This document shows, piece after piece, positions 22,941-39,021 of a DNA stretch of 64,000 nucleotides. The DNA lies in contig NZ_JARUBP010000001.1 of NCBI RefSeq assembly GCF_029626225.1, positions 3,720,001 to 3,784,000 on the forward strand, given 5' to 3'. How positions within the stretch are numbered: the first letter of the stretch is position 1; each line of letters starts with the position of its first letter. The position numbers were made by a program, and so were the translations under genes. This stretch comes from Asanoa sp. WMMD1127 (GTDB lineage: Bacteria > Actinomycetota > Actinomycetes > Mycobacteriales > Micromonosporaceae). Below the pieces are notes generated by a model that was not told the DNA's origin, searched no databases, and was given only the letters and a program-made list of their open reading frames with translations.

Positions 22941-23550
22941 CGGCTGTGTGACCGGCCGGATTCGGCCTGAGGCGCCAGCGTCGAGGGCAGGAAGCATCCG
23001 GGCCGATGTGCGACACCGTCGTCCGGTCGTGCCAATCGGCGGCACGCGCCGTGCCCGGACCCGCAATCCCGACCGACTGGTCAGCGCGCCAGCCAAGGCG
23101 CGCGTCCGGCATCAGCGCCAGTGCCAGGCATCGCGCCTGATGAGCCGGCAGCGGCGGCACCGCCCCGGGAGAGAACCAGCCAACCTCGACCGACTCGTCG
23201 TCGTTCACCCGGGCCGCGCCACCGACCACCCGACAACCGACCCCGACAGCCAGCCACCACACCTGATCCCCGTTCGGCGCCACCGACAGATCCAGCGCCT
23301 CCACCGACAGCAGGCGCTCGACCACGACCTCGACGCCCGTCTCCTCCCACACCTCCCGCACCGCGCCGGCCGCCGGCTGTTCCCCCGGCTCGAGGCAACC
23401 GGTGGTCAACGCCCACGACCCCGTATCGGACCGACGAACCAGCAGGACCCGCTCCCGCTCGTCGCGCACAACCGCGATCACACCGGGCAGTGGCAGCGGC
23501 GCGTGGCCGACACGCTCGCGCAGCGCCACGACGAAGTCCGGAATCGGCAT
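22876..23550 (-). CDS. NUDIX hydrolase
   Basis: NUDIX enzymes hydrolyse nucleoside diphosphates linked to another moiety. The NUDIX box GCLEPGEQPAAGAVREVWEE fits GX5EX7REUXEEXGU and continues TGV. The fold spans residues about 10-160; the last 60 residues are Arg-rich and look unlike the family, perhaps because the gene reads on into the overlapping 22713 gene. The start is ATG at 23550 with AGGGTG 7 nt upstream. The substrate is unknown. Confidence 0.83.
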   Translation of the reverse strand: MPIPDFVVALRERVGHAPLPLPGVIAVVRDERERVLLVRRSDTGSWALTTGCLEPGEQPAAGAVREVWEETGVEVVVERLLSVEALDLSVAPNGDQVWWLAVGVGCRVVGGAARVNDDESVEVGWFSPGAVPPLPAHQARCLALALMPDARLGWRADQSVGIAGPGTARAADWHDRTTVSHIGPDASCPRRWRLRPNPAGHTAVTESSGGGLRRRRRVGPVRRS

Positions 23551-24142
23551 GGGTCGGCACCCTACGACGGCGGCGCCAACGGCCCCCTCGGCGGTGACTG
23601 TGGACGGTGGCTGTGACACCATCGGGTATCCACGTTGCGCAACGGTGCGGTTACCGACACGCCATGTGGATGTAGTTGGCAACTTCCGTGATGTTTCGAA
23701 GCGTGTTGAGCAGGGGGTGAGCGGATGAGTGCCCTATGTCCCTCGCCCAGCCGGATCATGAGTCCTTGACCGAACGGCCCCTCGCGACCTAGCCTCGCGT
23801 TACAGATTGGATTTGCCCGACCATCGCAGGCTAAGTGCACAACATAGATCGCGTAACAAGACGGCATCACTTCTGGCCAGCAAGCCAGCTTTCGGCCAGC
23901 TAAGCCAGCAAGACGGCCCGCCGAGACCATCAGAGGCGCCGGCGAGCCGGCCGCATAACCCTCTTCCGGACGGGCCGGTCCGGACCAGGGATGACAGCAT
24001 TGTCGGCCAACCGGCGGCGCAGAGGCGCACCGTCGGTCGGCTCCCCACGGCCACAGCCGCCTCGGTCGGGCGTCCGTACAGCCGCGCGTGAGCGGAGGGT
24101 CACCCCCTTCCCCTCCCGCCGGACCGGTGAAGGGGAGGCGTC
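23551..24142. other. Long gap upstream of rny (592 bp)
   Basis: No full-size gene is seen. A 14-codon ORF at 23725-23769 has AGGGGGTGAGCGG before its ATG and could be a leader. GGCCAGC repeats occur near 23877-23910. At the right end CCCCTTC (24104-24110) can pair with GAAGGGG (24129-24135), and CCTCCC (24112-24117) with GGGAGG (24133-24138). Both pairings hide the ribosome-binding site of the first mini-ORF. Confidence 0.5.
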
Positions 24143-24190
24143 ATGACCGGGCGACACCGGGAGTGCTCCGGTAGGGACGTCCTGGCATGA
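24143..24190 (+). CDS. Mini-ORF 1 of the rny leader (15 aa)
   Basis: ATG at 24143 has a strong AAGGGGAGG 4 nt upstream. It encodes MTGRHRECSGRDVLA and ends in TGA overlapping the next ATG by 4 nt. The ribosome-binding site can pair with upstream C-rich segments. Expression is not shown by sequence alone. Confidence 0.35.
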   Translation: MTGRHRECSGRDVLA

Positions 24191-24240
24191 CCGCGCGAAG
24201 CGATCGCAACCCCGCCGACCGCAGGGAGGCGGCGGCGTGA
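24187..24240 (+). CDS. Mini-ORF 2 of the rny leader (17 aa)
   Basis: It encodes MTARSDRNPADRREAAA. It starts inside the stop of mini-ORF 1 (ATGA) and its own stop overlaps the GTG of mini-ORF 3 (GTGA). Its 3' half is the first copy of a 26-bp repeat that supplies GGGAGG for the next start. Confidence 0.35.
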   Translation: MTARSDRNPADRREAAA

Positions 24241-24310
24241 GAGAGCGTAGCGAGCGCAGTCAGCTCAGTCGCCGGTGCTCTTGCCCCGCCGACCGCAGGG
24301 AGGCGGCGGC
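24211..24310 (+). repeat. 26-bp direct repeat carrying ribosome-binding sites
   Basis: CCCGCCGACCGCAGGGAGGC followed by GGCGGC occurs at 24211-24236 and 24285-24310, exactly repeated and 74 nt apart. Each copy ends at a start codon (GTG 24237, ATG 24311) and encodes PADRREAAA in the preceding mini-ORF. Confidence 0.9.
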
Positions 24311-24314
24311 ATGA
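24237..24314 (+). CDS. Mini-ORF 3 of the rny leader (25 aa)
   Basis: GTG at 24237 follows GGGAGG. The peptide starts VRERSERSQLSRR and ends PADRREAAA. Its TGA overlaps the rny ATG (ATGA), so ribosomes could pass directly to rny. At 78 nt it has the same length as the mini-ORF before miaA. Confidence 0.35.
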   Translation: MRERSERSQLSRRCSCPADRREAAA

Positions 24315-26086
24315 GCCCGCTGGACGTCGTACTCCTCTCGGCTGTCATCGTTCTCGCGGCCGCCGTCCTGGTCGGGCTCGTGCTCGGGGCCAAGGCGCTC
24401 CGTCGCCTCAACACGCAGACCGCGGCGCCGAAGCCGGAAGACCCGAACTACACGGCCGAGCGGGAGCGGCACGAGCAGTCGCTGGCGACGTTGCGCACCA
24501 AGGCCGAAGAGGCCACCTCAACCGTCGACACGGCGAAGTCCGCGGCCGCCGCCGCCCGGACCGAGGCCGCCGCCGCCAAGGCCGAGGCCTCCGCAGCCCG
24601 GGCCGAGGCCCGCCGCGTGCTCGACACGGCCCGCGCCGAGGCCGACACCCTCCTCGAACGCGCGCACAAGCAGGCCGAGCAGGACGCCGAACAGCTCCGG
24701 GCCGCCGCCCGGCGCAGTGGCGAGCGCGAGGCCGCCATGCTCGCCGCCACCACCAAGGAACACGCCGCCGACGTCGAGCGGCGGGCCGCGCGGATGGACG
24801 AGCGGGAGCGCCTCCACAGCGAAGAGGTCGAGCGGCTCACCGAGCGTGAACGCCGCCTCACCGCCGCCACCGCGGAGCTCGCCGAGCGCGAGAAGGCGCT
24901 GGCCACCCGGGAGACCGAGCTGGTCGAGGCCGAGGAGCACCGCCGCCGCGAGCTGGAGCGGGTCGCCGGCCTGACCGCAGACACCGCGCGGGTCGAGCTG
25001 ATCGAGTCGATCGAGGTGCAGGCCAAGCGCGAGGCGGCGATCCTCGTACGCGACATCGAGTCCGACGCCCGCGCCACCGGTGAGCAGCGGGCCCGGCACA
25101 TCGTCGTCGAGGCGATCCAGCGGGTCGCGAGCGAGCAGACCGCCGAGAGCGTGGTCAGCGTCCTGCACCTGCCGGGCGACGAGATGAAGGGCCGGATCAT
25201 CGGCCGCGAAGGCCGCAACATCCGCGCGTTCGAGTCGGTCACCGGCGTGAACCTGATCATCGACGACACGCCGGAGGCCGTACTCCTCTCGTGTTTCGAT
25301 CCCGTCCGTCGCGAGATCGGCCGGCTGACGCTGGAGAAGCTCGTCCTTGACGGTCGCATCCACCCGCACCGCATCGAGGAGGTCTTCGAGACCGCCAAGC
25401 AGGAGGTGGAACGCCTCTGCCAGCGGGCCGCCGAGGACGCGCTCGTCGAGGTCGGCATCACCGAGATCCATCCCGAGCTCGTGACGCTGCTGGGTCGGTT
25501 GCGCTACCGCACGAGCTACGGCCAGAACGTGCTCAAGCACCTCGTCGAGACCGCCCACATCGCCGGCATCATGGCGGCTGAGCTGCGCCTCGACGCCCCG
25601 CTGATCAAGCGCGGCGCGTTCCTGCACGACATCGGCAAGGCGCTCACCCACGAGGTCGAGGGCAGCCACGCGCTGATCGGCGCCGACCTGGCGCGGAAGT
25701 ACGGCGAGTCCGACGAGGTCGTACACGCCATCGAGGCGCACCACAACGAGGTCCAGCCGCAGACGATCGAAGCCGTGTTGACGCAGGCCTCCGACGCCTG
25801 CTCCGGTGGCCGGCCGGGGGCGCGCCGGGAGAGCCTCGAGGCCTACGTGAAGCGGCTCGAGCGCATCGAGGAGATCGCCGGCGGCAAGACCGGCGTGGAG
25901 AAGGTCTTCGCGATGCAGGCCGGCCGCGAGATCCGCGTCATGGTCAAGCCCGACGACGTCGACGACATCGGCGCCGCCGTACTCGCCCGCGACGTCGCGA
26001 AGCAGATCGAGGAAGAGCTGACCTACCCGGGCCAGATCCGGGTCACCGTCGTCCGCGAGTCGCGCGTCACCGAGATCGCCCGCTAG
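24311..26086 (+). CDS. rny: Ribonuclease Y
   Basis: RNase Y is a membrane-anchored endoribonuclease that starts mRNA decay. The 591-residue protein has an N-terminal membrane helix (residues 4-27), a long Ala/Glu/Arg coiled coil (about 45-245), a KH domain (about 285-345; GRIIGREGRNIRAFESVTGV) and an HD domain with FLHDIGKAL (about 435-445), followed by the usual C-terminal region (VFAMQAGREIRVMV). ATG at 24311 is chosen because GGGAGG lies 7 nt upstream and MSPLDVVLL begins the membrane helix. The 5' leader has three overlapping mini-ORFs. Confidence 0.95.
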   Translation: MSPLDVVLLSAVIVLAAAVLVGLVLGAKALRRLNTQTAAPKPEDPNYTAERERHEQSLATLRTKAEEATSTVDTAKSAAAAARTEAAAAKAEASAARAEARRVLDTARAEADTLLERAHKQAEQDAEQLRAAARRSGEREAAMLAATTKEHAADVERRAARMDERERLHSEEVERLTERERRLTAATAELAEREKALATRETELVEAEEHRRRELERVAGLTADTARVELIESIEVQAKREAAILVRDIESDARATGEQRARHIVVEAIQRVASEQTAESVVSVLHLPGDEMKGRIIGREGRNIRAFESVTGVNLIIDDTPEAVLLSCFDPVRREIGRLTLEKLVLDGRIHPHRIEEVFETAKQEVERLCQRAAEDALVEVGITEIHPELVTLLGRLRYRTSYGQNVLKHLVETAHIAGIMAAELRLDAPLIKRGAFLHDIGKALTHEVEGSHALIGADLARKYGESDEVVHAIEAHHNEVQPQTIEAVLTQASDACSGGRPGARRESLEAYVKRLERIEEIAGGKTGVEKVFAMQAGREIRVMVKPDDVDDIGAAVLARDVAKQIEEELTYPGQIRVTVVRESRVTEIAR

Positions 26087-37301: not shown

Positions 37302-38033
37302 GTGACCCTCGTAGCTGTCGCGGTCTGTCCTCATCCGCCCATGATCGTCCCTGAGGTGGCCGGCGGCGCCGCCGCGGAGCTCGACGACCTGCGCGCGGCC
37401 TGCGGCGAGGCGGTCTCGGCGCTCGGCCGGGCCGGTGCGCGGCAGATCGTGGTGTTCGGGGCGGATTCGGCCATGACGTCCTATGACCCACCCCAGCGCG
37501 GCTCGCTGCGGCCGTGGGGCGTCGACCTGGACGTGTCGCTCGGGCCGCACGACCCGCTGGAGAGCCACCCGTTGCCGTTGAGCCTGGTGATCGGCGCGTG
37601 GCTGCTGCGGCAACACCCGCCCCGCCAGCCCGTCATGGTCAACATGCAGGGCATCGCCGCCGACGCGTCGCCCGACGAGTGCCGCGACTTCGGCGAGTGC
37701 TGCGTCCCGGACGGCCCGTGGGCGCTGCTCGTCATGGGCGACGGGTCCGCGTCGCGGGGCGTGAAGTCCCCGGGGTACGACGATCCGCGCGCCAAGCCCT
37801 ACGACGACGCCCTGGCGGCGGCGCTGGCCGGTGTCGACGTGGCCGCGCTGGGCGCGCTGGACCCGGCGCTGTCCGCGCAGCTGCGGGTGGCCGGCCGACC
37901 GGCGTTCCAGGCGGCCGCGGGCGCGGTGGCGGCAGCCGGCGGTGAGTGGTCGGGCGACCTGTCCTACTACGCGGCCCCGTACGGCGTCGCCTATTTCGTC
38001 GCCTCCTGGCAGCGCCGCGGGGCGACGGCATGA
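37302..38033 (+). CDS. Class III extradiol-dioxygenase-like protein
   Basis: The 243-residue protein begins VTLVAVAVCPHPPMIVPEVA, the hallmark of the extradiol-ring-cleavage subunit-B-like fold, with LVMGDGSASRGVKSPGYDDP further on. Actinobacterial members next to miaA have no known reaction. GTG at 37302 lies 6 nt after TACCGT (37290-37295), fitting a leaderless mRNA. The stop overlaps the ATG of the mini-ORF that bridges into miaA, so this gene, the mini-ORF, miaA and dapF form a chain of 4-nt overlaps. Confidence 0.88.
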   Translation: MTLVAVAVCPHPPMIVPEVAGGAAAELDDLRAACGEAVSALGRAGARQIVVFGADSAMTSYDPPQRGSLRPWGVDLDVSLGPHDPLESHPLPLSLVIGAWLLRQHPPRQPVMVNMQGIAADASPDECRDFGECCVPDGPWALLVMGDGSASRGVKSPGYDDPRAKPYDDALAAALAGVDVAALGALDPALSAQLRVAGRPAFQAAAGAVAAAGGEWSGDLSYYAAPYGVAYFVASWQRRGATA

Positions 38034-38107
38034 GGGAGCTTGCGACCGAATCATTCGGCTCAGTAGCCGGCTCATGCTCCTCCGAGCGAAGCGAGGCAGG
38101 CGCATGA
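38030..38107 (+). CDS. Mini-ORF bridging to miaA (25 aa)
   Basis: ATG at 38030 overlaps the upstream stop (ATGA), and its TGA overlaps the miaA ATG (ATGA). The peptide starts MRELATESFGSVAG and ends SSERSEAGA. Its length (78 nt) equals that of mini-ORF 3 before rny. Both share GCTCAGT, one variable base, then GCCGG near the middle, although shifted by 2 nt. Confidence 0.4.
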   Translation: MRELATESFGSVAGSCSSERSEAGA

Positions 38108-39021
38108 CCGTTGTCGCGGTGGTGGGGCCGACGGCGGCCGGCAAGACGGCGCTCAGCCTGGCGCTGGCTGCCTCGCTCGACGGCGAGGTGGTCAACGCCG
38201 ACTCGATGCAGCTTTATCGCGGTCTCGACATCGGCACCGCGAAGCTGCCCGTGGATTCGCGGCAGGGCATTCCGCACCACGTGCTGGACATCTGGCCGGT
38301 GACGGCGCCGGCGAGCGTGGCGGAATACCAGCGGCTCGCCCGGGCGGCGATCGACGACATCCTGGCCCGGGGCAAGGTGCCGCTGCTGGTCGGCGGCTCG
38401 GGCCTCTACGTGCGGGCGGTGCTGGAGGAGTTCGAGTTCCCGGGTACGGACGCCGCGTTGCGCGCCTCCCTGGAGGCCGAGCTGGCCGAGGTGGGCGCCC
38501 CGGCCCTGCACGAGCGCCTGCGGGCCGCGGATCCGGTCGCGGCGTCGCGGATCCTCCCGACCAACGGCCGCCGGATCGTCCGCGCCCTGGAAGTGATCAC
38601 GCTCACGGGCCAGCCGTTCGCGGCCGCGCTGCCGGAGGAGCCGGTGCCGTTTTATCCCTCTGTGCAGATTGGGATCGACGTGTCGACGCCCGTGCTGGAC
38701 GAGCGTGTCGCGTCCCGGGTGGCGGCGATGTGGGCCGACGGTCTGGTGTCCGAGACGGCCGACCTGGTGTCCGCGGGCCTGCGGTCGGGCCGCACGGCCA
38801 GCCGGGCACTCGGATACCAGCAGGTCCTGGCGTTCCTGGCGGGGGAGTGCACGGAGCAGGAGGCACTCGCGGAGACGGTCCGGGCGACGCGCCGCTTCGT
38901 ACGCCGCCAGCGCACCTGGTTCCGCCGCGACCCCCGGATCAGCTGGCTCGACGGCGCCTCGCCGGGTCTGGCCGCGGCGGCGCTGGGTGCGGTCCACGCA
39001 CAGCGGGCGGGTGCGCCATGA
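38104..39021 (+). CDS. miaA: tRNA dimethylallyltransferase MiaA
   Basis: MiaA transfers a dimethylallyl group to A37 of tRNAs reading UNN codons and provides the substrate for MiaB. The 305-residue protein has Walker A GPTAAGKT at residues 8-15, NADSMQLYRGLDIGTAK, GGSGLYVRAVLE and the C-terminal QRTWFRRDPRISWL, all conserved. ATG at 38104 is fixed by the MTVVAVVGPTAAGK start and by the ATGA overlap with the mini-ORF. Its own stop overlaps the start assigned to dapF. Confidence 0.96.
   Translation: MTVVAVVGPTAAGKTALSLALAASLDGEVVNADSMQLYRGLDIGTAKLPVDSRQGIPHHVLDIWPVTAPASVAEYQRLARAAIDDILARGKVPLLVGGSGLYVRAVLEEFEFPGTDAALRASLEAELAEVGAPALHERLRAADPVAASRILPTNGRRIVRALEVITLTGQPFAAALPEEPVPFYPSVQIGIDVSTPVLDERVASRVAAMWADGLVSETADLVSAGLRSGRTASRALGYQQVLAFLAGECTEQEALAETVRATRRFVRRQRTWFRRDPRISWLDGASPGLAAAALGAVHAQRAGAP

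Follow-up and report, generated by a model that had tools for sequence, protein, structure and literature searches.

MIRU-like repeats at start codons as the probable source of two of the three mini-ORFs preceding rny in Asanoa sp. WMMD1127

In Asanoa sp. WMMD1127 (Micromonosporaceae), the RNase Y gene rny is preceded by three very short open reading frames (ORFs) that overlap one another and the start of rny. They lie in the stretch of 64,000 nucleotides analysed here, called the window (assembly GCF_029626225.1, contig NZ_JARUBP010000001.1, positions 3,720,001 to 3,784,000, forward strand). The question raised by this locus is whether the three mini-ORFs form a single device specific to rny, as a preliminary description had proposed. 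The comparison does not support this, since the repeat of which ORF2 and ORF3 are copies also occurs at dozens of other junctions between unrelated genes. In the reading that we consider highly probable, ORF1 is an old leader mini-ORF coupled to rny, and ORF2 and ORF3 are insertions of a repeat resembling the mycobacterial interspersed repetitive units (MIRUs), made nearly neutral by a relay of ribosomes through the chain. The elements of the chain are as follows.

24130-24138, + strand: Shine-Dalgarno sequence (SD) of ORF1, AAGGGGAGG; most relatives likewise have a strong SD ahead of their leader mini-ORF
24143-24190, + strand: ORF1, 15 codons, MTGRHRECSGRDVLA; ancestral leader mini-ORF
24187-24240, + strand: ORF2, 17 codons, MTARSDRNPADRREAAA; shortened repeat copy, matched by the covariance model described below (E = 3.2e-5 in the genome search)
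24237-24314, + strand: ORF3, 25 codons, GTG start, (V/M)RERSERSQLSRRCSCPADRREAAA; full repeat element (76.9 bits, E = 1.5e-24 in the window search)
24311-26086, + strand: rny, RNase Y; Pfam RNase_Y_N, KH_1 and HD, each above the cut-off

The arrangement of the chain had been described correctly, with overlaps of exactly 4 nt (ATGA, GTGA and ATGA), the rny ATG at 24311 and a strong ribosome-binding site before ORF1. The exact repeat reported as 26 bp is also present, with a length of 27 bp (CCCCGCCGACCGCAGGGAGGCGGCGGC, 24210-24236 and 24284-24310), nested in a 32-nt repeat with one mismatch. It is the common end of two element copies, of which ORF2 is the shorter by 24 nt. Pairing of the ORF1 SD with C-rich sequence upstream is predicted in the window, but its strength is not conserved, as the probability that the SD is unpaired is predicted by folding to be 0.17, 0.78, 0.72, 0.07, 0.54 and 0.69 in the six Asanoa leaders, the first value being that of the window. 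The bare chain is not rarer than chance. When three ORFs of 10-40 codons joined by NTGA into an ORF of at least 100 residues were sought, without demanding an SD, 40 dinucleotide-shuffled windows held on average 1.4 chains per strand, and the real window holds one on the + strand and none on the - strand. The case for the chain therefore rests on comparative evidence. Rfam gave no match at E ≤ 1 across 23500-24700.

The rny leader was compared over 86 loci, comprising the best 80 of 528 relatives and six loci of the genus; 84 are distinct, as L048 and L072 come from one genome and L050 and L053 from another. The closest named loci among these best 80 are those of A. iriomotensis (L053) and A. 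ishikariensis (L072), with 94% identity. In 75 of the 86 loci, rny can be reached from an SD-led ATG by NTGA overlaps of exactly 4 nt, by way of one mini-ORF in 57, two in 11 and three in 7. The same was found at 52 of 1288 random RTGA sites, and at 42 of the 299 among them that open an ORF of at least 100 residues. The other 11 rny loci lack such a chain; several of these resemble Actinoplanes and have an SD immediately ahead of rny. These and similar rny counts are not independent, as the loci share kinship. For ORF1, the expectation that ATGA junctions are kept across Micromonosporaceae while peptides change is borne out by this comparison. A 15-codon ORF starting MTGRHR is present in all six Asanoa genomes. 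It overlaps rny directly in A. ishikariensis (...CTCGCATGAGC...), without ORF2 and ORF3, and also in a second Asanoa genome (L051), so that two of the six leaders are empty, which speaks against a device made of all three mini-ORFs. One mini-ORF intervenes in three others (25 codons in L049, 26 in L052 and 19 in L050/L053) and two in the window. Given the conserved junctions and the SD-led mini-ORF in 75 loci, a translational relay is the natural reading of the rny leader, translation of the mini-ORFs being presumed from their arrangement.

The sequence of ORF3 matches further places in the same genome. With at most one mismatch, the 19-mer RTGAGNGAGCGNAGCGAGC has 79 matches in the six Asanoa genomes, compared with one for the reversed control. 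In its exact form, RTGAGCGAGCGNAGCGAGC, it is present in 27 of 61 genomes of the family and 21 of 148 of the class, with no control match. The fetched copies are for the most part short ORFs bounded by NTGA on either side and followed by a gene in the same direction; among 190 distinct exact matches in the fetched loci, 147 are ORFs of at most 34 codons that end in an NTGA overlap. Copies were grouped into 119 arrays, drawn from 134 preselected copies. Of these arrays, 113 lead into an ORF of at least 100 residues or off the stretch (349 of 781 random NTGA sites), and 78 are flanked on both sides by such ORFs joined by NTGA (26 of 781). The repeat unit mostly measures 74, 77 or 80 nt. Adjoining copies are spaced by 74 (13 cases), 77 (9), 80 (9), 75 (4) or 78 nt (3), more rarely by 64 (2), 68 (2), 72 (1) or 107 nt (1). 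As an NTGA-overlap chain needs, 34 of the 44 spacings (24 of 31 arrays) are 2 mod 3.

Several loci show these copies in particular arrangements. L163 carries a tandem array of five copies with a period of 77 nt and L175 three with a period of 74 nt, each before one gene. In one Asanoa genome of the pair L136 and L137, an apparent ABC transporter ATPase gene is fused to the repeat's first 11 codons; in the other, the repeat stands as a mini-ORF of its own ahead of that ATPase-like gene. L196 was considered as another such fusion and rejected, its MSERSEV being the gene's own start. In four genomes of genus g65 (L336, L337, L338 and L339), an ORF of 38-46 codons starting MSERSE(R/H) stands before a gene starting MSLSLRFAAG.., which suggests a long-kept copy.

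Orthologous sites devoid of the element were read at seven loci, 28 in all. At 15 of them the flanks are joined by exactly ATGA, compared with ATGA, element and ATGA where the site is filled. Three empty sites at L151 are likewise plain ATGA when judged by eye, the gap of -8 being an artefact of the alignment. Five at L142 and some at L146 and L162 keep the ATGA start with small other differences. The sites of L003, L142, L155 and L162 are element-free in all five other Asanoa genomes; that of L146 is also filled in G001 (L168), and that of L151 in G003 and G004 (L180 and L197). For L135, one other genome was read. Among single copies, the NTGA on the left has the same N as the one on the right in 73 of 93 cases (odds ratio 8.2, p = 8e-4), as expected from target duplication. 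Judging from element-free orthologues at the seven loci and at rny, the element appears to be mobile and to insert at the NTGA of start codons.

The 3' half of the element forms a hairpin holding the SD at a normal distance from the next start codon, as in ORF3.

24286-24306, + strand: 3' hairpin of ORF3; GNA triloop at 24295-24297, SD GGGAGG at 24298-24303 in the 3' arm; covariation over 130 copies

In 130 distinct copies, the pairs -17/-13, -18/-12, -22/-8, -23/-7, -24/-6, -25/-5, -26/-4, -28/-2 and -29/-1 covary, all nine beyond 2000 of 2000 shuffles and with three to four Watson-Crick types each. RNAalifold likewise reports pairs with two-sided changes. The N of the loop is A in 71 of the 130 copies, even though, in the genes that follow, CGA accounts for 4.0% of the CGN codons; this preference at a variable CGN position fits a GNA loop. 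An SD match of at least 4 nt was found in 126 of 134 copies, compared with 180 of 495 random NTGA sites.

The foot of the hairpin extends over the next start codon and pairs in a locus-specific manner with about the first 8 nt of the gene. With the register fixed on positions -2 to +4 only (an earlier, poor register gave mostly no excess), pairing over 109 copies was 0.743 versus 0.420 at +5, 0.413 versus 0.295 at +7 and 0.431 versus 0.285 at +8, values matched by 0, 2 and 0 of 5000 shuffles, respectively; at +6 and +9 these copies showed no excess. At 41 distinct Asanoa sites, pairing from +5 to +9 was 2.93 versus 2.05 when shuffled (0 of 5000), and a shifted control gave 1378 of 5000. Several orthologues were compared for each of eight copies. 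For L003 and the rny copy of G002, the arm fits positions +1 to +8 of another Asanoa orthologue better than those of its present neighbour, and in the other six it fits its own gene equally well or better. These two cases are only suggestive of an arm that records its target at insertion.

A covariance model was built from 45 copies, so that detection was not tied to the 19-mer. Genome counts are matches at E ≤ 0.05 with 150 candidates per genome scored, and are lower bounds. They amount to at least 20, 28, 21, 35, 23 and 12 in the six Asanoa genomes, the weakest matches being uncertain; the window's own genome thus holds about 20 copies (at least 20 matches), including ORF2 and ORF3. A further copy lies in the window, between a 268-residue ORF with no Pfam match and miaA.

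38030-38107, + strand: second element copy, RELATES sub-family, MRELATESFGSVAGSCSSERSEAGA; 61.0 bits, E = 5.3e-19 in the window search, ATGA at both ends
38104-39021, + strand: miaA, tRNA dimethylallyltransferase, downstream of the second copy; Pfam IPPT, E = 6.7e-52, residues 1-200

Aligned through the model to the SERSER consensus, this copy has a one-base and a two-base gap, by which the reading frame differs in the middle of the copy and is regained by its end. Among 24 fetched model matches outside the 19-mer set, 13 read MRELATES.. or nearly so and 7 read M(T/I)EPWRG..; the latter sub-family is shifted by one base, as judged by eye. All of the 24 except L394 and L397 have an open frame with NTGA at both ends. 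The sub-families are thus read in different frames yet are open between their NTGAs: continuity is kept, and the peptide is not. Beyond the genus, matches at E ≤ 0.01 were found in 12 of 16 further genomes of the class. They are strong (best E 8e-10 or lower) in six, namely G094, G169, G116, G132, G150 and G203; the other positive genomes have weak matches, and those inspected may be other repeats. Model R1 gave one match (E = 0.0095) among four genomes of genus g45, family f2.

These observations can be brought together as follows. ORF1, with its strong SD, would hand ribosomes to rny across the ATGA stop-start overlap. The element enters the NTGA at a gene start and leaves an NTGA at either end, and between the two it has an open frame, usually of 25-27 codons. 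A ribosome finishing the upstream ORF probably restarts on the mini-ORF and melts the hairpin; it would then end at the next ATGA and restart on the gene, and the repeat would probably not interrupt translation. By termination and reinitiation across each ATGA, an insertion would be nearly invisible to expression, which would explain its survival inside operons and before rny. Selection maintains frame continuity and the hairpin, not the peptide.

A precedent exists in the MIRUs. A 2025 review (PMC12548453), which cites Supply et al. 1997 and gives the same picture of start-codon coupling, describes them as entering at start codons and carrying an ORF that is coupled at -4 nt. Two further papers describe tandem repeats of 46-101 bp at 41 loci in H37Rv (PMC3914561) and a class I MIRU that fills a 77-nt 5' untranslated region (PMC4128351). 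The Asanoa element is similarly a short repeat dispersed over many loci, sometimes in tandem (spacings of 74, 77 and 80 nt), its internal ORF overlaps the next gene start by 4 nt (147 of the 190 matches), and it is apparently mobile with insertion at start codons, from the element-free orthologues. It may be called MIRU-like in its way of working, a likeness of architecture. It differs in occurring in Asanoa, other Micromonosporaceae and further families of the class. Set against the MIRU accounts, as far as their available text goes, the series of empty sites, the frame-swapped sub-families, the covarying GNA hairpin and the locus-specific foot pairing are the element's own. Coupling of translation through termination and reinitiation where stop and start codons overlap is established elsewhere, and PMC6728339 describes the same stop-start overlap with the SD inside the upstream ORF; in Asanoa, by contrast, a repeat brings the overlap to new sites. 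The enterobacterial RU-1/2/3 are also small mobile repeats with open frames, reported inside genes, and start-codon coupling is not mentioned for them in the available text of PMC2759123. A literature search, which fell short of most subscription papers, returned no account of such repeats outside mycobacteria.

Several observations weigh against the insertion reading or limit it. The filled L142 has two extra bases at its left end (one of the seven loci). Among the 190 exact matches are 18 in ORFs that are long or extend beyond the stretch, 19 in ORFs of 35-90 codons and 6 without the overlap, and the 134 analysed copies were preselected as ORFs of 20-30 codons ending in NTGA. Ten of the 44 tandem spacings fall outside the relay frame, some being in-frame fusions. 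In the hairpin, mismatches predominate at -19/-11 and -20/-10, -27/-3 does not covary, and the shuffle tests treat the copies as unrelated. By prediction, the SD is no less accessible in the element than at random NTGA sites (0.311 versus 0.338, p = 0.72), and the start codon is just slightly less open (0.233 versus 0.321, p = 0.03); strict sequestration, or an SD occluded more strongly than at random sites, is unsupported by thermodynamic folding. No mobilising enzyme was found. Y1_Tnp (PF01797) is present in 6 of 30 genomes and not in G000.

Repetitive extragenic palindromic (REP) elements, which are short imperfect hairpin repeats with sequence-specific insertion, are associated with Y1 transposases of the RAYT and IS200-IS605 type. 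The Asanoa element lies at start codons, unlike the extragenic REP, and PF01797 is absent from five of the six Asanoa genomes, including the window's own, and from the copy-rich G041 and G061. Mobilisation of the Y1/REP type is ruled out as a general answer, as the domain is absent from most host genomes. A phage vehicle was also rejected: 56 viral contig stretches contain the 19-mer, with four matches in ORFs of at most 34 codons with an NTGA overlap, all under 20 codons, unlike the element, and five longer matches with an overlap besides. Among plasmids, a single query, the 101-nt stretch around one copy, found no match.

The relation of the mini-ORFs to rny can be seen otherwise. In the preliminary description, they served dedicated control, with ribosome traffic or leader cleavage by RNase Y tuning rny. 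The leader mini-ORF (75 of 86 loci) and a conserved upstream block (74 of 86, with one hairpin covarying modestly) are what such a device would keep; with ORF2 and ORF3 at dozens of unrelated genes and missing in two of six Asanoa, SD pairing before ORF1 not conserved in strength and 11 loci without the chain, it is unlikely. Nothing observed speaks for autoregulation through cleavage by RNase Y. Chance overlap in GC-rich DNA would readily yield the bare chain, at about 1.4 per strand in shuffled windows. It is already refuted by the empty sites and the leader conservation, family membership also speaking against it, and we give it practically no weight. Very improbable, too, is a functional micropeptide family. 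MSERSER is nearly invariant among copies found by the 19-mer, but it is fixed by that search itself; in model-found copies, other frames of related DNA give MRELATES.. and MTEPWRG.., which disfavours selection on the peptide, and the variable CGN position favours A, in a codon rare in neighbouring genes.

It is possible, if doubtful, that the repeats are kept as beneficial cassettes for tunable coupling, the number of copies determining the protein ratio of the neighbours. Tandem arrays of up to five copies, the hairpin covariation and the locus-specific pairing suit this view. So do the L146 site, filled in two Asanoa genomes, the L151 site, filled in three, and the sites L139/L143, L149/L193 and L153/L161, which from the next gene's first residues appear filled in several. 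Four of the seven sites (L003, L142, L155 and L162), however, are filled in one of six genomes, and copy number differs widely between genomes. As an extension of the insertion reading, the arm might guide a mobile element that seeks start codons, finding or recording its target by pairing, the guide being rewritten or used at each jump with no Y1 transposase; we regard this as improbable.

MIRUs are widely used in strain typing. How repeats of this type spread becomes a testable question with the Asanoa family, which is polymorphic, lies outside the mycobacteria and combines empty sites, frame-swapped sub-families and a locus-matched hairpin arm. MIRU-type start-codon repeats, known from mycobacteria, are found here in several other actinobacteria. 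They account for a type of small ORF that is easily overlooked at actinobacterial operon junctions, and MSERSER-like peptides should not be read as proteins. The rny leaders would offer natural translation relays of one, two and three steps.

Two further features lie upstream of the chain.

23766-23795, + strand: promoter-like TTGACC-18-TAGCCT upstream of the rny leader, proposed from the window sequence and the alignment
24054-24087, + strand: conserved rny leader block, CAGCCGCCTCGGTCGGGCGTCCGTACAGCCGCGC; core motif with at most two mismatches in 74 of 86 rny loci

A strict sigma-70 scan called no promoter at TTGACC-18-TAGCCT; the motif is kept in all six alignment rows that reach so far (five other Asanoa genomes). 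The core of the leader block, GGTCGGGC, is flanked by hairpins, one of which covaries modestly, and the block is possibly a new leader RNA motif.
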